Part shown: positions 18,846 through 31,275 of the stretch, piece by piece
Layout: every line of letters starts with the position of its first letter
Numbering within the stretch: the first letter of the stretch is position 1
Assembly (NCBI GenBank): GCA_007135645.1
Contig: SLIL01000158.1
Location: forward strand, 1-38,484
Reading direction: 5' to 3'
DNA length: 38,484 bases
From: Bacteroidales bacterium
Lineage (GTDB): Bacteria > Bacteroidota > Bacteroidia > Bacteroidales > UBA7960
The notes under the pieces: generated by a model
Databases searched by the model: none
Seen by the model: only the letters and a program-made list of their open reading frames with translations
What the model was told of the DNA's origin: nothing
Position numbers and translations under genes: made by a program

Positions 18846-19712
18846 ATGGATGATACCCCAATGGTGGCAACAGAAACGCCGGCAAAAAAGAACTTTATTG
18901 ATCTTGACGAGGTTTTCAGAAAAAAAGGCAGAAAACTCTACCCCATTATCCCTAAATTTTTAATCAATTATCTGAAAAGGGTTATTCATGAGGATGAATT
19001 GAATGAAGCATTGAATAAATATGAAAGCAAGATGGGGCTCGATTTCATTGAATCCATTCTAACGGAACGCTTTACAGTAGATATTGAAGTCAAAAATCTT
19101 GAAAACCTTCCGGCCACGGGGCGCTATATCATCGCGTCCAACCACCCCCTTGGCGGACTGGATGGTATGGCCCTGATGCATGTTGTTGGCAAGAAAAGAA
19201 AAGACATTAAGTTTATTGTAAATGACATCCTTCTTGAATTAAAAAACCTGAATGAGTTGTTTGTGCCGGTAAACAAGCATGGACGCAACAGCATTGAAAG
19301 CGTAAAAATTATTGAGAGTTTATATGAATCAGACGACCTGGTACTGATCTTTCCGGCAGGGCTTGTTTCCAGGAAACAAAAAGGGGGCATCATTAAAGAT
19401 CTGCACTGGAAGAAAAGCTTTATCAGCAAGGCCATAAAGCATAAGAGAGACATCATTCCGGTATATATTGAAGGGAAAAACTCAGCCTTTTTTTACAACC
19501 TGGCCCGCATTCGCAAAATGATCGGGATAAAAGGGAACATTGAAATGCTTTATCTTCCTGACGAGATGTTTAAACAGGCTGATAAAAGCATGACCATTAC
19601 TTTTGGCAAGCCTCTGCCTTACAACATATTTACCAAAAGCCAGACCCACGATCAATGGGCACAGTGGGTAAAAGAAAAGGTTTATGAACTTGCCCATGAG
19701 CCAACCATCTGA
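18846..19712 (+). CDS. PlsC-family acyltransferase, probable O-acyltransferase of glycine/ornithine-type aminolipid synthesis (GlsA-like)
   Basis: Lysophospholipid acyltransferase features SNHPLGGLDG and LIFPAGLVSRKQKG; followed at once by a hemolysin-like GNAT N-acyltransferase, the glsA/glsB arrangement known in Bacteroides. Confidence 0.85.
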   Translation: MDDTPMVATETPAKKNFIDLDEVFRKKGRKLYPIIPKFLINYLKRVIHEDELNEALNKYESKMGLDFIESILTERFTVDIEVKNLENLPATGRYIIASNHPLGGLDGMALMHVVGKKRKDIKFIVNDILLELKNLNELFVPVNKHGRNSIESVKIIESLYESDDLVLIFPAGLVSRKQKGGIIKDLHWKKSFISKAIKHKRDIIPVYIEGKNSAFFYNLARIRKMIGIKGNIEMLYLPDEMFKQADKSMTITFGKPLPYNIFTKSQTHDQWAQWVKEKVYELAHEPTI

Positions 19713-19774
19713 ATCCATTAACAATCCGTATAACAGAAAAAACAAAACAACCCATAAAACTTAAAACTACTATT

Positions 19775-20710
19775 ATGCAAAAAGAGATCATCGACCCCAT
19801 AAGACGTGAGATATTAAAGAAGGAGCTTAGCAGAGATAAATTTTTGCGCACCACCAATTATGGAAACAATGAGATCTATGTAATAACGCACCACGATTCG
19901 CCCAACACTATGCTTGAGGTGGGTCGCCTGCGGGAGATCTCATTCAGGGCGGCCGGTGGCGGTACCGGTAAAGAAACCGATGTGGATGAATTTGATACCG
20001 GCAAGGTACCTTACAAGCAATTGATTGTTTGGGATCCGGCAGAAAATGAAATCGTAGGAGGATACCGTTTTATCCTCGGGTATGAAGTGGAAAAATCTGC
20101 CGATGGCAAACCCATGCTGGCAACCTCCGGGTTGCTGGAATATTCGGATAAGTTCGTCAACGAGTATTTACCTTATACCATTGAGCTGGGCAGATCTTTT
20201 GTTCAGCCCAAATACCAGCCCTCCAAAGAGAGCCGTAGGGGGCTTTTCTCCCTGGACAACCTATGGGACGGGCTTGGTGCACTGGTGGTTGATCATCCTG
20301 AAATCAAATACTTCTTTGGCAAAGTAACCATGTATGATCATTTTAATCCAATAGCCAGGGATATGATCCTGTATTTCCTGCACAAATTTTTCCCGGACAC
20401 CGAGGATCTTACAAGCCCGAAAGAACCTCTCACTTACAAGACGGATGTTTCAGGATTTGATGCCCTTTTCAATGGCAACACCTTTGAGGAAAATCATAAA
20501 ATCCTTTTCCAGGAAGTGCGCAAGCATGGCGAGAATATCCCCCCGCTGGTGAACTCCTACATGGTACTCAGCCCCACGATGAAAACCTTCGGTACCGCAT
20601 GGAACGAAGAGTTTGGCGGGGTAGAAGAGACTGCTATTCTGATCCGGATTGAAGATATTTATGAAAACAAGAAAGACAGGCACATCAGCACATACACCAA
20701 AGGTCAATAA
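19775..20710 (+). CDS. GNAT-fold N-acyltransferase (GlsB / OlsB-like, 'hemolysin' family)
   Basis: 311 aa; VGRLREISFRAAGGGTGKETDVDEFD, YRFILGYEV, LPYTIELGRSFVQPKYQ..., LDNLWDGLGALVVDHPEIKYFFGKVTMYDHF typical of acyl-ACP-dependent aminolipid N-acyltransferases. Confidence 0.87.
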   Translation: MQKEIIDPIRREILKKELSRDKFLRTTNYGNNEIYVITHHDSPNTMLEVGRLREISFRAAGGGTGKETDVDEFDTGKVPYKQLIVWDPAENEIVGGYRFILGYEVEKSADGKPMLATSGLLEYSDKFVNEYLPYTIELGRSFVQPKYQPSKESRRGLFSLDNLWDGLGALVVDHPEIKYFFGKVTMYDHFNPIARDMILYFLHKFFPDTEDLTSPKEPLTYKTDVSGFDALFNGNTFEENHKILFQEVRKHGENIPPLVNSYMVLSPTMKTFGTAWNEEFGGVEETAILIRIEDIYENKKDRHISTYTKGQ

Positions 20711-23665: not shown

Positions 23666-24958
23666 TTACCATGTAGTAGAATACCTCTGGTTAAACATCC
23701 TGAAGGTTTTCATCTCCCCGGTCCGGTCTGACTTGTAGTGAATATGACCCGAGAGCATGCTTACCGCGCTGCGGGAAGACGAAAGATTCTCAATATTCAG
23801 GGGCTGATCAACTTCCAGGGTAAAGGTGTGATTGCCCTTGCCCGAGAAACTTTTACCAATGTTGCGTACCACAACCGGAGAGTGTCCCTGCCACTCCAGT
23901 GATACCTGGTCTATGGTAAAGGGAGCCTCATACCTGGATACTACCGTAATGGTTATGGTTGATTTGTCAATATGATCTCCGGATCTTGATACCTCTGCAA
24001 ACTGCAAGGGCTCATTGACAAATATGGATGCCTTGTCGGCGGTAATGTCAAAATAGAAACGATTCTGAACATTGGTGTTGCCAAACCTGTACCTTACCAT
24101 CAAATGGTTTTCGGGATCTTCATAGCAGTTGTAGTAATCGTAGGTAACGGTGACCACATGTCCCTCTGTGGAAGTTCCTGTTACCCTGGCGCAGTCAGAG
24201 GTGATCTGGGGTCTTTGGGCTGTGGTGGCAAAATCATTCCTGAACCGCAAGGCATATTTCAGTTCTCCGGGTTTGCTGTCAATCTCCACCAGTTCAATGG
24301 TATTATACAGATTTCGGAGCCTTGTCATTCCCATTCTTGCCTGTTCTCTGCGACCATCCACAAAATAATCCTGCAGGATACGCAATTCAGCAATGCCTTT
24401 TTCAATGTCTTCAATCGTATGCACCCTGTCGATACTGGCCAGGATCTCCTCCAGTTGTCCGGTAAGTTCACGATCCCTCATCCTGAATTCCATAACCAGT
24501 TTCTGAAGTTCAAAATTGGAAAATGGATATTTGATGTGGTAGTTATACGTGGCAACCCTGGTTCTGCGGTCCTCAATCTTTTCCCAGTAATATTCATCCA
24601 CATTTGACAGGGAAACACCCTGCAAATAAGGCACCGGCCCTGAAGTAGTGGTTATGGTTGTGGCGTGCTTCTCCAGAAAAACAGATACATTGTTGTTGAA
24701 ATTTGCCTCTTCAATGGTCATTTCTGAGGTAGCCTGCACATTCTGGGCAACAGCATTTACAATGTTCTCCCTGACCATATTAAGGGCATTTCTCTGGGCA
24801 TCCTGTATGGAAGAACCAGTGCCTACCACGATGATATAATCTGCTTCCAGACCATTAACCCATGATGGCTTTCTTCCGCTCCGGTCTGCGACCCTTGTTT
24901 GAGCAAAAAGGGATGCGCCAAATGAGAAAAGAAAAAAGACTACCAGCAATTTCTTCAT
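23666..24958 (-). CDS. Secreted LPP20/FlgT-N-like protein of unknown function
   Basis: Signal peptide (LFAQ), then GRKPSWVNGLEADYIIVVGTGSSIQDAQRNALNMVRENIVNAVAQNVQATSE, an LPP20-like pattern. Confidence 0.75.
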   Translation of the reverse strand: MKKLLVVFFLFSFGASLFAQTRVADRSGRKPSWVNGLEADYIIVVGTGSSIQDAQRNALNMVRENIVNAVAQNVQATSEMTIEEANFNNNVSVFLEKHATTITTTSGPVPYLQGVSLSNVDEYYWEKIEDRRTRVATYNYHIKYPFSNFELQKLVMEFRMRDRELTGQLEEILASIDRVHTIEDIEKGIAELRILQDYFVDGRREQARMGMTRLRNLYNTIELVEIDSKPGELKYALRFRNDFATTAQRPQITSDCARVTGTSTEGHVVTVTYDYYNCYEDPENHLMVRYRFGNTNVQNRFYFDITADKASIFVNEPLQFAEVSRSGDHIDKSTITITVVSRYEAPFTIDQVSLEWQGHSPVVVRNIGKSFSGKGNHTFTLEVDQPLNIENLSSSRSAVSMLSGHIHYKSDRTGEMKTFRMFNQRYSTTW

Positions 24959-24990
24959 AAGACAATAGTTTTGTTTAATATAAGGTAAAG

Positions 24991-25016
24991 TACGGCCGGT
25001 TTTAAAACCGGCCGTA
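24991..25016. repeat. Perfect 26-bp palindrome between two LPP20-like genes
   Basis: TACGGCCGGTTTTAAAACCGGCCGTA is identical to its reverse complement. Confidence 0.95.
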
Positions 25017-25046
25017 AACCAAAAAATTAACAGTAGTGTTTAAAGA

Positions 25047-25634
25047 TCAGGGGCGCTCTTGTTCAAGACGCTCCATTTCTTCGTTGAATATCCGCTCAAA
25101 CTGCATGCGGTCATAGTCCAGGCGCAACCTGTCATCGCGGCTGATGCGGGAAGAGATATTGTTCAACAGCTCATCCTTATCCACTTCCACTGCCATATAT
25201 ACCGAATACTGGCCACCTCTTTCAAACACCTGGTTACAGGTAATACTTACGTTGTTAAGCACCTGGTTTACAACCTGACGTGTCATATCCTCAAAACGCT
25301 CAGCAAATTCATTGGCATCACCCACGGTTATATCCTGGGTATAACGGTCTGTAACCGCTCTGATGGTACTGTTGATACTTGCAGCCAGGCTTGAATTGGC
25401 ATCAAGGTTGGCCCTGCGCCTGGTGGAAGCCAGATTGGTTCCTTCTGCCATTCCTGTTCCCCTGAAATGCGTAGCATCGGTAAAATAGTCGTTATCGCTG
25501 CATGGGATCGCAACTTCAGTACCATGAGCACTGTAATCCGGGGCCTGTTGTTTGCTTCTGCAACCGGTTATAGCGCCTGCCACAAAAATCAATGACAACA
25601 GAAGGATCATTTTGTTAAATAGTTGTTTTTTCAT
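25047..25634 (-). CDS. LPP20-like lipoprotein
   Basis: Lipobox GAITGCRSKQ; FRGTGMAEGTNLASTRRRANLDANSSLAASINSTIRAV ... QYSVYMAVEVDKDELL resembles LPP20 lipoproteins. Confidence 0.78.
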   Translation of the reverse strand: MKKQLFNKMILLLSLIFVAGAITGCRSKQQAPDYSAHGTEVAIPCSDNDYFTDATHFRGTGMAEGTNLASTRRRANLDANSSLAASINSTIRAVTDRYTQDITVGDANEFAERFEDMTRQVVNQVLNNVSITCNQVFERGGQYSVYMAVEVDKDELLNNISSRISRDDRLRLDYDRMQFERIFNEEMERLEQERP

Positions 25635-25736
25635 AGTTGATTGTTTTAATGATTAAACATAAATGTGCCATTCTAAACATCCACGTCTCACGCAGGCTAC
25701 AGTATGGCTTCTAAAGTAATTAAACTGATTTTCAAC

Positions 25737-25873
25737 AAAAGTACCACTTCGAACAACGCAATACCCCCCCGACCCCCTAAAAGGGGGAGCTCGCAATGAA
25801 TTGCATTCAGGGCTGTTGAAAAATATGATTGTGTTCTCAATAACATAAAAAACGCTTTTCGAAGTAAACTTTT
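25737..25873. repeat. MITE/REP-like intergenic element, copy A
   Basis: Imperfect terminal inverted repeats (AAAAGTACCACTTCGAACAACGC ... ACGCTTTTCGAAGTAAACTTTT) around CCCCCTAAAAGGGGG-AGCTCGCAA; internal core shared with copy B at 28491-28610. Confidence 0.7.
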
Positions 25874-25911
25874 AACAATATCCAAAGGTAAATCAAAAAC
25901 AGCACCAAAAA

Positions 25912-26871
25912 TCAATTGCGGTACAACCAGCTCCAGTCGAAGTATCTGTGCGCGCCGTAGTAAGCCCATCTTTTGGCAACATCCCTTCCTGCTTCCACCT
26001 TAAGTCTTTGCATATCCACATCATCCTCGTAGCGGGTCATTCTGAACTGCCATGAACTGGCTCCTTCGGCCTCAACAGCCTGTGTAACGGTTTGCACCAG
26101 TTGTTGTGCCTCTTCATAACAATCCATATCAGGGGTGATCTGTCCAAGGTTTTCTTCAACCTTTATCAGATCTTTCCCTGCCCATGCAGCCCTTGCAGCA
26201 GCAAGATGCTGATTGCATTTGTCGTTGGCATAAAGCTGGTAAATATCAGCAGTAAGATTCATGGCCATATGGAAGCACTCCCTGCTCACATCAGGAACCG
26301 ACATCAGTAAAAAGAGCGCTTCACCAAACTGCTTCTGGTTGGCAAGGGCCTGCGAGCCTGTAATGATCACATCGCACTGGGAATTGTAATATTCCACAAT
26401 ACGCTCTTTGCCCCGCTCCACAAAACCCCTGAACTGGCCATGCCGTGGGTTTACATTTCGCAGTGCCTGGGAATAGGCCCGCTCCTCGGTATTGCCCACC
26501 CCTCTCAGTTCTATGCTGGTCTGGCTGAAAATATTCTGACTGACAACATCCACAATATAAAGACTAAGCTCAACGGTGAGCGCAACCTGCGGAGGTGCAG
26601 TGGGTGTAACATCGTGTGTAATGATCGATACCATGGGCACCATGGCAAACTGTGCCTGCCCTTCGATAGCTCCCAGTCCATTCTGGGTTGCAATCTGCAT
26701 CATTCTGTTTTGAAGCATATTTTGTGTCCCGGCAGGCAAGCCCGCTTCATCAGGAACAATAGCTGCAATACCGATACGACCAAGGTCATCGGTGCGGCCC
26801 AGGTTGCTCTGTGCAACCAGGCTTGTAGCTGCAAACAGGATGATTACAATGATTCCGGTTATTTTCTTCAT
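25912..26871 (-). CDS. Secreted protein with possible CsgG-like N-terminal domain
   Basis: Signal peptide ending LVAQ; RIGIAAIVPDEAGLPAGTQNMLQNRMMQIATQNGLG ... VALTVELSLYIVDVVSQNIFSQTSIELRGVGNTEERAYSQAL resembles a CsgG-type pattern by eye. Confidence 0.6.
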   Translation of the reverse strand: MKKITGIIVIILFAATSLVAQSNLGRTDDLGRIGIAAIVPDEAGLPAGTQNMLQNRMMQIATQNGLGAIEGQAQFAMVPMVSIITHDVTPTAPPQVALTVELSLYIVDVVSQNIFSQTSIELRGVGNTEERAYSQALRNVNPRHGQFRGFVERGKERIVEYYNSQCDVIITGSQALANQKQFGEALFLLMSVPDVSRECFHMAMNLTADIYQLYANDKCNQHLAAARAAWAGKDLIKVEENLGQITPDMDCYEEAQQLVQTVTQAVEAEGASSWQFRMTRYEDDVDMQRLKVEAGRDVAKRWAYYGAHRYFDWSWLYRN

Positions 26872-26895
26872 AAAATATGGTTTTGTAAAATTAGG

Positions 26896-27867
26896 TTATC
26901 TTTCTCCTACAATCAGCCAGGCTTCTCCCAGGCCTCTCATATAGATCTGCGAATCAATTCCCAGGTTTTGCCTCAGGTGTCTTCTGAGGTCACTCACAAA
27001 GCCCCTGGTATCCACTGCCCTTTCCCTGCCGCGGTTGTCTACCCTCATCATGGGAATACGCACCTGCTCAAGCCTCATCAGTGTATGGGAAGCATCAGCC
27101 AGGCTGAATCTTCCTTGCACAGTATTGTCAAAGAACCAATCTTCAATATGCTCAAGCAATTCTTTTTCTTCTCCATCAAAGTCAAAATAAGTTTCCAGGT
27201 CACCGTCATACCAGTTGTCCCAAACCCTTACCATTACATTCACTTCACGGCCATTCTCAAACATATCTTCAAAATGTCTCATGAGTCCGGCATTGAAACC
27301 GTCCATGTGGCTAAGCACTGCTTCTTCAAGCAGAAGCTCGGGAGTAGCAGATGAAGAAGGTGCTCCGGAGCCGGCTGCACCGGCCACTTGTTTTGAGGTA
27401 TAAGCGTCCAGACCGCGAAGGTTAAAGGTTATATACCTGTGTGGCCCCTGCCTTCTGATATCAAAACTAAGATCGAGAATTATATCAGCACCTGCAGTTC
27501 TTTTTAGAACATCAATGGGGGTTTCGGCAACCTGTGAGCCGGAGGAGGAAGAGGCCAGCATAGCTATTTCTGCTGCTTCACGCTGCATATTACGCAGTTC
27601 CATTTCCAGGTCTTTCAAAGGAAAGCCCCTGTTAGCCATAATTTCTCCCATTTTGGTGATGACCATACGAAGATCCGGGTCGTTTTGCATTGCTGCGGTA
27701 TAGTCAGGAAGGGTCTGGGTGCGTCCCATAGATTCAAATTCCATGCTGTACCCGTTGCTGATACAATACTGATCACTGGGTACTACCATGATGGTGGGAC
27801 GGCGTGCCTGAGAAAATACACTGAAACAGATTAAACTGATTAAAAGGATAATAAAAACTTTTTTCAT
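26896..27867 (-). CDS. Secreted DUF6175-like protein
   Basis: Signal peptide; TIMVVPSDQYCISNGYSMEFESMGRTQTLPDYTAAMQNDPDLRMVITKMGEIMANRGFPLKDLEMELR; family name from memory. Confidence 0.65.
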   Translation of the reverse strand: MKKVFIILLISLICFSVFSQARRPTIMVVPSDQYCISNGYSMEFESMGRTQTLPDYTAAMQNDPDLRMVITKMGEIMANRGFPLKDLEMELRNMQREAAEIAMLASSSSGSQVAETPIDVLKRTAGADIILDLSFDIRRQGPHRYITFNLRGLDAYTSKQVAGAAGSGAPSSSATPELLLEEAVLSHMDGFNAGLMRHFEDMFENGREVNVMVRVWDNWYDGDLETYFDFDGEEKELLEHIEDWFFDNTVQGRFSLADASHTLMRLEQVRIPMMRVDNRGRERAVDTRGFVSDLRRHLRQNLGIDSQIYMRGLGEAWLIVGER

Positions 27868-27922
27868 AGACCATTGATCTTTTTAGGTTTATAAATAAAT
27901 GATGGATGCTGCCTGGTAGAGG

Positions 27923-28465
27923 TTAAAACCCATGATCCAGGCGTCGTGCAATTCCGTCGGCCTCAAGCTGTCTGCGAAGGTTATCATACATTACCTGGGC
28001 ATAAATAGCTACCTTGTACCCCCTGGGCCGGCTCATCCTCAGCCTGTCCTGCCCGCTGGGCATGCCGTCGGTTGTAAGGTTGATAAAATTAATGTATTTG
28101 CCGCTGGCAGAAAAGAATTCATCAAAATAGTCAGCATGTTTTTCGCCTGCATTGGGATCGCGCAAAATGGCTGGAGTGGCCGCTGCACCATGACCGGCGG
28201 GTATTCCCCTGAAGATCACCGATGCCACGGCATTCATTTTTGCCTGAATGATGGCATCCTCCACGCGGCGACCATAACCCCATACTTTCATAGTTTTGGT
28301 ACCGTCACTTCCTACGCCGGTTATTTCAACTTCATAGTTATAGCTACTACTGTAATGAGCTCTCCTGTCGCTTCTTGAGTGCCTTGCCTGTGAGCAGGCA
28401 ATTTCTGAAAAAGCAAACATTATTAGCATGAACAATAAAATTCGAGGTGAGACTTTCATAAACAT
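27923..28465 (-). CDS. Exported hypothetical protein, possibly LPP20-related
   Basis: Signal/lipobox-like FSEIACSQA; VWGYGRRVEDAIIQAKMNAVASVIFRGI resembles the LPP20 'A..nA' helix. Confidence 0.55.
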   Translation of the reverse strand: MFMKVSPRILLFMLIMFAFSEIACSQARHSRSDRRAHYSSSYNYEVEITGVGSDGTKTMKVWGYGRRVEDAIIQAKMNAVASVIFRGIPAGHGAAATPAILRDPNAGEKHADYFDEFFSASGKYINFINLTTDGMPSGQDRLRMSRPRGYKVAIYAQVMYDNLRRQLEADGIARRLDHGF

Positions 28466-28490
28466 TGGTTTTTTTAGTTAATATTTGAAT

Positions 28491-28610
28491 CGCTTCAGAA
28501 AAGTATAATACCCTCATTCCCCCAGAAAGGGGAGCTCGCAAAATAATTGAATTTGCACGAGCTGGTAAAAGGTGTTTTTTATTAACATAAAAAATACTTT
28601 TCGGAGTGAC
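28491..28610. repeat. MITE/REP-like intergenic element, copy B
   Basis: Inverted GAAAAGTAT (28498-28506) / ATACTTTTC (28594-28602); shares ATACCC..C, AAAGGGG(G)AGCTCGCAA, AACATAAAAAA and CTTTTCG(A/G)AGT blocks with copy A in the same order. Confidence 0.7.
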
Positions 28611-28651
28611 TTATTTTTTCTTTCTGTATAGTTTAGAATTAAATGGTTTTT

Positions 28652-30292
28652 TCAAAACATAAATTTGGTGCCCACCATTATTGAACTTCCGGTACGGCCT
28701 GTAAAGATGTCGTCCCATGGGCGCGGAGCGAAATTAGCTCCTTCGCTTTCGGCATCTGTAACAAAAACATAATTCCCAATACCCATGATCAACTGGAAGT
28801 TATGGGTCAGATTCATTGCCAGATTAACTCCTGGTTTCACATAGTAAGCTCTTATGGCATTATCTTCGGAAAAGTCATCGTTGGAAGCACTTTCCAGGCC
28901 AAACCCCGCATAGGGCCGCAACTCCATATTACGGGTAAGCTGCATCCCTTTGGCAAGCCCACCGGAAACACTGAGTAAAGTAAAGTTTTTATCGGAAACA
29001 AACCTGTTATATCCACTGCCAACGCCCAGATCAACATACACAAACAACGCCCTGATGCCGGTAAGCCTTCCTGTGCGGTAATCAAGCCTTGAGTAGAAGC
29101 CTTCCAGCCCGCCAACTTCACCTCCCAGGGTAATCTCAAACCCCATGTCGTTGCGTTGCACAATGGTATATCCCTGCTCCAGCCTTCGCCCTGCAACCTG
29201 GTAGAACTGCGAAGTACCCATATCGCCGTATGCTTCATGGCGGTTATCGTGAATCCTGGAGCTACGTCCTGCCCTTATCACACCTCTTCTCACTGGCTCA
29301 ACAGTATTGGTCCGCCGGTTGTAAACATGCTCATAAACAAAGAAGCGATAGTCCGTTCTTAATCCTTCCTTTAGTCCAATTTTAGCCCTGGGCGGTCTGC
29401 GTTCATAGAGTGGAGTTACCACTTTAAATGCTTCTACCCTTCTCTCCAGCTCAAAGATCACATCCTCATAAGCTTTCTGAACCAGCTCCTGCAAAAGCTG
29501 ATCTTCTGATTTGGTGCCTAAGCGGCGTGTCTGGGTGCTGTTTACTGTAGAGGGCAGCACCAGGGATACATTAGCCACGTGCTCCAGGGGAAACTCCATA
29601 GAATCAAAGGCTTCCCGTTTCTGCCGTTTCACTTCCGGGCTGTCGTCTTCATAGATCCAAGTTTCATACAAGGCATAGCGCACCTCATCATTAAAATCTA
29701 CCCGGTACAGGTGGGCTGACATTTGGGCTGTCCATCCGCGTAGGGTGCTTGCGTTCTCGGTTTCACTCATGTTTCTGATATTGCGCAGATCAATAATCAG
29801 CACAAAACTTTTATTTACCAGTTCATTGCCCATATCCTGCAGAGCCGCATCACCCCTGCTGGTGGAAGAGGCAGCAAAATAATCGGCATCTGTGGCTGCA
29901 AACCGCCCTCTCTGGTGCACAAGCTCCATGTCCATGGTCCCGTCAGCCTGGCGGTTGTACCATTTTGCAATCACCTTTCTGCCAACATCCAGTTTCTTCA
30001 GATCATTCAGGAAAGCATCCTCCACATCGGCGGGCATCCTGAGGTTATCCCTGGAGAAACCCGGCCGTAAAAAGAGGGTCTCCAGGTTATGATTGTCAAA
30101 TTTATCAGAGAATTCAATTTGGGAGATCTTTTCCCGGGTTCGCGACCAGTGATTCGCACCGGGATAGTCCACAAAGAAAACAGTTACCGAATTACGGGTA
30201 TAAGATTCAGGCAGTACCGATGAAAAAAGCTTTTGGGAGAAGGTCGGATAACATAACAATACAATAATGATGAAAAGTTTAAAATTCTTCAT
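28652..30292 (-). CDS. Exported protein with C-terminal outer-membrane beta-barrel-like region
   Basis: Signal peptide (CYPTFSQ), soluble N-terminal half, then alternating strands LRPYAGFGLESASNDD...AIRAYYVKPGVNLAMNLTHNFQLIMGIGNYVFV...SSIMVGTKFMF with terminal Phe. Confidence 0.65.
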   Translation of the reverse strand: MKNFKLFIIIVLLCYPTFSQKLFSSVLPESYTRNSVTVFFVDYPGANHWSRTREKISQIEFSDKFDNHNLETLFLRPGFSRDNLRMPADVEDAFLNDLKKLDVGRKVIAKWYNRQADGTMDMELVHQRGRFAATDADYFAASSTSRGDAALQDMGNELVNKSFVLIIDLRNIRNMSETENASTLRGWTAQMSAHLYRVDFNDEVRYALYETWIYEDDSPEVKRQKREAFDSMEFPLEHVANVSLVLPSTVNSTQTRRLGTKSEDQLLQELVQKAYEDVIFELERRVEAFKVVTPLYERRPPRAKIGLKEGLRTDYRFFVYEHVYNRRTNTVEPVRRGVIRAGRSSRIHDNRHEAYGDMGTSQFYQVAGRRLEQGYTIVQRNDMGFEITLGGEVGGLEGFYSRLDYRTGRLTGIRALFVYVDLGVGSGYNRFVSDKNFTLLSVSGGLAKGMQLTRNMELRPYAGFGLESASNDDFSEDNAIRAYYVKPGVNLAMNLTHNFQLIMGIGNYVFVTDAESEGANFAPRPWDDIFTGRTGSSIMVGTKFMF

Positions 30293-30396
30293 AATTAGTC
30301 CTTTTGTTTTGGTAGTTGAAGCAGTAAAATTAACAAACTCATCATATATAAGCTGGATGTTTATCTAAATAAACACTCCATTTACAGATGACCGAA

Positions 30397-30404
30397 CAAA
30401 TATA
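30397..30404 (-). promoter_or_regulatory. Candidate -7 element for the six-gene cluster
   Basis: CAAATATA = reverse complement of TATATTTG (TAnnTTTG), about 105 bp upstream of ATG 30292; -33 spacing not ideal. Confidence 0.4.
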
Positions 30405-30665
30405 TAAAAAAACGTTAACGAAACAGCCCCAAATCTGATTTTTTTTGTCATTTTTCAATAATTTTTTTTCAAAATTAACCAGACGTGACCGATAAATTTG
30501 CTGGGATTTAGCATAATTGCTTCTTTAGGGTCTGTTTTGAAAATCTGTGATATTTCAAAACACTGGCAGGAAAATTGTAAAGTAAGGCATGAGAATAAAA
30601 TGAGCTATTTCAGAACAATAACTCTGACCTGCAGCAACAAACCAACAATAAGAATAAAAAAAACG

Positions 30666-30673
30666 TAATTTTG
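30666..30673 (+). promoter_or_regulatory. Candidate -7 element for the divergent TPR-like gene
   Basis: TAATTTTG matches TAnnTTTG; no clear -33 TTG found. Confidence 0.35.
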
Positions 30674-30681
30674 TTTTTCTT

Positions 30682-30713
30682 TAAAAGTAAGCATCCATAA
30701 AAGTAAGCATCCA
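30682..30713. repeat. Exact 16-bp tandem duplication
   Basis: TAAAAGTAAGCATCCA x2, immediately downstream of the TAATTTTG element. Confidence 0.95.
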
Positions 30714-30795
30714 AAAGACAAAGAATACTTTCATAGGATAACCGAATAATATACAGACAACCATTTAAAATGCGCAAATCTTAAAAAAACAAGAC

Positions 30796-31275
30796 ATGAA
30801 GAAAAAATCTTTTTTATCAGTATTGATGATGCTATTGATAGTGTCAGCCGGAATAGCCCAGGATTCAAGAGCTTTGCGTGCCGCAAGAATGAGCTTTAAC
30901 TCCGCTGAAAGGAACTACAGCAGAGGCAATTACCAGGAAGCAGCCCGTGAGTATGAGATCGTTATTAATACCATACCAGCCAATACAGACTCCAGAAGGC
31001 ACCTGGAAATGCGTCTTGAAAGCCTGATAGCCATGGTGGACATCCATTTTTACCGTTTTATCAATATTTCTAATGCCTGCCAGTACATGCATATGTATTT
31101 TGAGAACATGAACACAATCCGCAACAGTGGTACCTTACGCGCCTCTTCCCTCAGAGATTTCCAGAGAAAAGAACAGGAGTTCAGATCGGAACATGCTACC
31201 AAGTGCGACAGTTATCAAAACATCCATAGAGACATGGAGGAGTTCAGAAAGCGGTTTGAAGAGGAATTTGAATAA
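30796..31275 (+). CDS. Secreted TPR-like hypothetical protein
   Basis: Signal peptide (SAGIAQ); ARMSFNSAERNYSRGNYQEAAREYEIVINTIP resembles a tetratricopeptide repeat. Confidence 0.65.
   Translation: MKKKSFLSVLMMLLIVSAGIAQDSRALRAARMSFNSAERNYSRGNYQEAAREYEIVINTIPANTDSRRHLEMRLESLIAMVDIHFYRFINISNACQYMHMYFENMNTIRNSGTLRASSLRDFQRKEQEFRSEHATKCDSYQNIHRDMEEFRKRFEEEFE

Follow-up and report, generated by a model that had tools for sequence, protein, structure and literature searches.

Six consecutive genes on the minus strand of the window, the whole 38,484-nt stretch of DNA analysed here, constitute a conserved and co-inherited unit of exported proteins. On our best reading, the gene set is apparently undescribed, and its closest structural relatives, as judged from predicted models, are flagellar H-ring proteins. 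We see an even chance that the operon specifies a scaffold that resembles the H ring, works independently of flagella and lies on the inner side of the outer membrane. The papers that we searched contain no description of such an assembly, and none of them joins LPP20 and CsgG in Bacteroidota.

A conserved unit of six exported proteins

The window corresponds to contig 67 in a genome of 4.1 Mb (92% complete) whose close relatives are Bacteroidales genomes from metagenomes. In order of transcription, the six genes (23666-30292) encode the barrel protein, P180, DUF6175, P319, LPP20 and P430, which are listed here with two neighbouring features.

28652..30292, minus strand: barrel protein, exported, 546 aa; predicted soluble FlgT-like part (residues 21-394, 29111-30232) and putative C-terminal outer-membrane barrel (residues 395-546)
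27923..28465, minus strand: P180, exported, 180 aa; FlgT-N/LPP20-like domain predicted from a fusion model
26896..27867, minus strand: DUF6175 (PF19672), exported, 323 aa; predicted CsgG/GNA1162/PelC-like core and C-terminal alpha/beta domain
25912..26871, minus strand: P319, exported, 319 aa; alpha/beta N-terminal half, TPR-like middle
25047..25634, minus strand: LPP20, predicted lipoprotein with lipobox ITGC, 195 aa
24991..25016, minus strand: perfect 11-bp inverted repeat in the LPP20-P430 gap, without a poly-T tail
23666..24958, minus strand: P430, exported, 430 aa; N-terminal LPP20 domain, long C-terminal region
30796..31275, plus strand: exported TPR-like protein of a divergent gene, at most an accessory part in this genus

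The ORFs of these six consecutive genes, described as encoding exported proteins in the initial annotation, were confirmed, and strong hydrophobic N-termini resembling signal peptides were found in all six products and in the divergent 30796 protein. A canonical lipobox occurs among these proteins in the 25047 product alone (ITGC25), and the control protein NadE has neither feature. The inverted repeat at 24991-25016 might form an RNA hairpin or an attenuator; the inverted-repeat scan as a whole was at chance level, and no promoter motif for the operon rose above chance level. A dispersed intergenic repeat with the core GGGGAGCTCGCAA, present in 43 exact copies genome-wide (reversed control, 0), has two copies in the operon, at 25784-25796 and 28529-28541, which occupy its two longest gaps. 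Elsewhere in the window, the glycine-lipid synthesis genes glsA and glsB lie at 18846-20710.

GTDB genomes were scanned with a DUF6175 alignment, which yielded at least 549 candidates; the best 80 loci and the window together make up the 81 Bacteroidales loci compared here. The order barrel protein, P180, DUF6175, P319 is near-invariant among them. Of the 76 loci that could be judged, 74 have P180 either beside DUF6175 or fused with it (median gap of 30 bp over the 81 loci), and P319 directly follows DUF6175 in 79 of the 81, with a median gap of 28 bp. The barrel protein is encoded upstream in 63 of 67 loci and P430 nearby in 48 of 63, the loci lacking P430 including many from Salinivirgaceae. 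Two loci, L020 and L093, were scored as lacking P180, the ORF caller having placed an overlapping ORF there; the P180 of the L020 genome was recovered by tblastn (L008). Five of the 81 loci carry a natural fusion with P180 at the N-terminus of DUF6175. DUF6175 is rare elsewhere in the phylum (12 of 297 genomes, a count that includes the genome of the window), yet P180, DUF6175 and P319 remain together there, and one distant group has a one-piece P180-DUF6175 protein next to an LPP20-type protein whose tail is weakly P319-like. Such fusions argue for a physical association between P180 and DUF6175.

Co-occurrence was assessed in 197 Bacteroidales genomes sampled evenly across the order, most of which carry either the whole set of DUF6175, P319 and the barrel protein or none of it. 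DUF6175 was found above the cut-off in 48 genomes, P319 in 44 and the barrel protein in 37; DUF6175 shares 43 genomes with P319 (p = 1.4e-36) and 36 with the barrel protein (p = 6.7e-28), both values treating the 197 genomes as independent, uncorrected for phylogeny. Among 40 relatives, P430 was found in DUF6175-positive genomes only. Within the window's genus, 5 of 12 genomes carry the set, and searches of the other seven yielded no gene for DUF6175, P430 or the TPR-like protein. A lack of co-occurrence in other genomes, which the initial annotation had named as evidence against a complex, is not what these data show: given the order kept in 81 loci and the co-occurrence of the genes, the arrangement is far beyond chance.

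We also considered whether adjacent genes belong to the system. The divergent TPR-like gene at 30796, which had been counted with the complex, is present in all five cluster-positive and none of the seven cluster-negative genomes of the genus; it is absent from the cluster-positive genome G014, and because it is confined to the window's genus we rejected it as a general part. An 883-aa exported protein lies beside the cluster in 10 loci and a 353-aa protein, LPP20-like by eye, in eight (L031:12983-16671, L032, L038 and L073; also L028, L046, L048 and L061). They directly follow the LPP20 gene in several loci, none of the members that were tested falls into a Pfam family, and they are possible further parts. 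In 10 loci (L022, L023, L024, L030, L033, L036, L040, L041, L056 and L058), an ExbB-ExbD-ExbD operon precedes the cluster in the same direction, with an alkaline phosphatase gene between; we judged this arrangement to be synteny, probably of housekeeping genes, and not part of the system. In the window's genus, gldB is located close downstream of the cluster.

Predicted folds of the cluster proteins

The gene at 26896-27867, initially annotated as DUF6175-like, encodes a full-length member of PF19672 (E = 1.5e-105; 352.9 bits against a cut-off of 23; model positions 2-292 of 293). PF19672 is a family of unknown function, and none of the papers searched mentions DUF6175. An AlphaFold (AF2) model was made of the natural P180-DUF6175 fusion from locus L090, not of the window proteins (pLDDT 84.6). 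In a joint alignment of P180 and DUF6175, the P180 rows were placed correctly with signal peptides cut off and the DUF6175 rows thinned. In a Foldseek search against 350,542 solved PDB chains, its best match was 8z5n_0, which belongs to the flagellar LPHT ring (E = 3.9e-5), then FlgT 3w1e (1.3e-4), followed by GNA1162 (2.2e-4), CsgG 4uv2 (1.7e-3) and PelC 5t11 (6.5e-3); PelB-PelC 9h80 was also matched, after FlgT. From its length and its ranking beside 3w1e, we take 8z5n_0 to be FlgT. The model supports a CsgG/GNA1162/PelC-like fold for the DUF6175 core, and P180 is modelled as a beta-beta-alpha-beta-beta-alpha domain. P180, suggested as a possible third LPP20-like protein, has no Pfam match, but its fusion with DUF6175 models as FlgT-like.

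The second AF2 model comprised the window's barrel protein minus its signal peptide and barrel (pLDDT 89.9, pTM 0.88). Its sole matches below E = 0.001 were FlgT 3w1e (1.5e-6) and 8z5n_0 (1.7e-6), and there were weak matches to F1-ATPase subunits and to 9h80; the C-terminal domain of FlgT has been compared with the barrel at the N-terminus of F1-ATPase subunits. Two models unrelated in sequence have, by E-value, the same top pair, and structure prediction, which the initial annotation had recommended, has not shown unrelated folds. Whole-chain TM-scores against FlgT are low in both models (0.18-0.24) despite E-values of 1e-4 to 1e-6, indicating that the domain arrangement differs from that of FlgT and that the agreement lies in local structure and its order. 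By sequence, single and profile queries with the cluster proteins gave no FlgT match in Pfam or the PDB, and P180 and the soluble half of the barrel protein had no convincing match.

The view of 28652 as a soluble N-terminus joined to a barrel is sustained for the soluble half, for which the model supports a FlgT-like fold, whereas the signals for the barrel are weak: 7 of 62 orthologues gave an OMP_b-brl match, none better than 2e-4, and the last residue is aromatic in 54 of 65. Many orthologues stop after the FlgT-like part and have no barrel, which suggests that the protein has this part as its core, with the barrel added as an optional anchor. The FlgT-like part is also found within proteins of approximately 860-916 aa encoded away from the cluster (G110:C77 and G178:C47, L124:7072-9660).

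The LPP20 likeness proposed for 25047 and 23666 is supported through their orthologues. The window copy of 25047 matches PF02169 at E = 0.0017 (19.2 bits), under the curated cut-off of 25.9, and 17 of 27 orthologues match the family, with E-values down to 1.9e-6; there is also a weak match to Helicobacter pylori Lpp20 5ok8 (E = 0.23). For P430 (23666), 18 of 45 orthologues match PF02169, which is placed as an N-terminal domain, with E-values down to 4e-5. Profile comparison of P430 with the 25047 family gave a probability of 90%, which fell to 72% once signal peptides were removed, and this pair alone remained among the between-family comparisons made in that way; most of the earlier weak matches between families were caused by signal peptides and were rejected.

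Of 63 P319 orthologues, 27 match ARM_TT21 or are otherwise TPR-like, the strongest at 9.9e-6. P319 had been considered CsgG-like, but CsgG (PF03783) was found in none of these 63 orthologues, in no other cluster family and nowhere in the genome, and profile comparison of 24 Bacteroidota CsgG proteins with the cluster families gave no match. With negative results from Pfam, from sequence searches of the PDB and from the comparison of profiles, we rejected CsgG membership for 25912 and every other cluster protein. DUF6175 is CsgG-like by predicted fold; for 25912, a CsgG-like identity finds no support by sequence.

A proposed flagellum-independent scaffold and its alternatives

What might such an assembly do? 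No FlgI was found in the window's genome, a 92%-complete draft, although the control search detected it in Escherichia coli and others, and no flagellar genes were seen near the cluster. The absence of FlgI indicates that the operon is probably not part of a flagellum, as the initial annotation had proposed, and the host appears to lack flagella, judging from this one marker in one draft genome and from general knowledge of Bacteroidota.

In Vibrio, the H ring, which reinforces the flagellar motor, contains FlgT and FlgO, has FlgP associated with it and is connected with the outer membrane (PMC6504787). By analogy, the assembly would be built from the same domain types, and its FlgT-like and LPP20-like domains might oligomerise in the periplasm to give a ring or disc, or several of them. 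With the fused barrel and the lipid anchor of LPP20 as attachments to the outer membrane, these could act as a scaffold or bushing, bracing a trans-envelope machine or the envelope itself. FlgP, Lpp20 and FlgT share an SHS2-like fold, in which ring formation goes with an insert after the helix (PMC12222027); in the P180 part of the L090 fusion model, the region after the SHS2 helix is mostly coil and helix and not a beta-hairpin, which weakens the argument for a ring. The general direction of the initial annotation has held, with FlgT- and LPP20-like proteins that co-occur in a genome where no FlgI was found, but the CsgG-like assignment of 25912 has not.

We consider it unlikely that the operon instead encodes an export channel, in which a CsgG- or PelC-like oligomer of DUF6175, P319 or both would secrete protein or polysaccharide and the barrel protein would form the membrane exit. 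The fusion model does match CsgG, PelC and PelB-PelC, the soluble half of the barrel protein weakly matches 9h80, and the barrel is fused in many orthologues; however, FlgT outscores every pore protein in both models, PF03783 is absent from the P319 orthologues and the genome, some barrel-protein orthologues have no barrel, and the recurrent neighbours include no recognised secretion substrate or polysaccharide synthase. A lipoprotein system for envelope maintenance or peptidoglycan regulation, of a GNA1162-, LpoB- or Tol-like kind and without large rings, is rather improbable. It would accommodate GNA1162 as the third match of the fusion model, and LPP20 and CsgG-like folds occur in non-ring lipoproteins too, but the patchy spread of the cluster (about a quarter of Bacteroidales genomes and 5 of 12 in its own genus) would be unusual for a core envelope function, and no consistent link to a recognised murein enzyme was found.

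The neighbouring genes bear on a different proposal, namely a support ring for another proton-driven machine, either ExbB-ExbD or the gliding/type IX motor, comparable to the H ring for the Vibrio stator. The ExbB-ExbD-ExbD operon upstream in 10 loci and gldB close downstream in the window's genus are suggestive only as pointers to a client machine. We regard this proposal as very unlikely. The former neighbourhood probably reflects synteny of housekeeping genes, an alkaline phosphatase gene lying in between, and G144 carries the cluster but not the type IX protein SprA; SprA is near-universal (187 of 197 genomes), so no correlation with type IX secretion is visible.

Taking the H-ring-like scaffold as the preferred reading, we speculate, with little confidence, that this assembly of Bacteroidota stabilises another energised trans-envelope machine and that rings of the FlgT/FlgP type serve the envelope in general as bushings, which flagella adopted in some lineages. 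Flagellar accessory rings are commonly regarded as flagellar inventions. If the scaffold reading is correct, two FlgT-like and two LPP20-like proteins in bacteria that seem to lack flagella would widen the role of these domains, the operon would provide a simple system for studying outer-membrane ring assembly, and a function would be suggested for DUF6175 and several unannotated families present in about a quarter of the sampled Bacteroidales genomes.

Comparison with known ring and pore proteins

The cluster resembles the Vibrio H ring in that two modelled proteins have FlgT at or near the top of their structural matches, LPP20-type domains occur in two more, and the proteins are exported, at least one being a predicted lipoprotein. 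It differs in that no FlgI was found in its genome, its proteins show no FlgT-type sequence signature, the FlgT-like part is fused to a putative outer-membrane barrel, P180-DUF6175 is split in two in most genomes, and several FlgT/LPP20-like proteins are encoded within one operon. With FlgP and Lpp20 of Campylobacter and Helicobacter, the cluster shares the LPP20 domain and, in 25047, a predicted lipid anchor, whereas no flagellar genes were seen nearby. DUF6175 is similar to GNA1162 and to CsgG and PelC, which are oligomeric lipoproteins for secretion across the outer membrane, in its predicted core fold as matched by Foldseek; in contrast to these proteins, the window's DUF6175 has no lipobox and no PF03783 match and carries an extra C-terminal domain.
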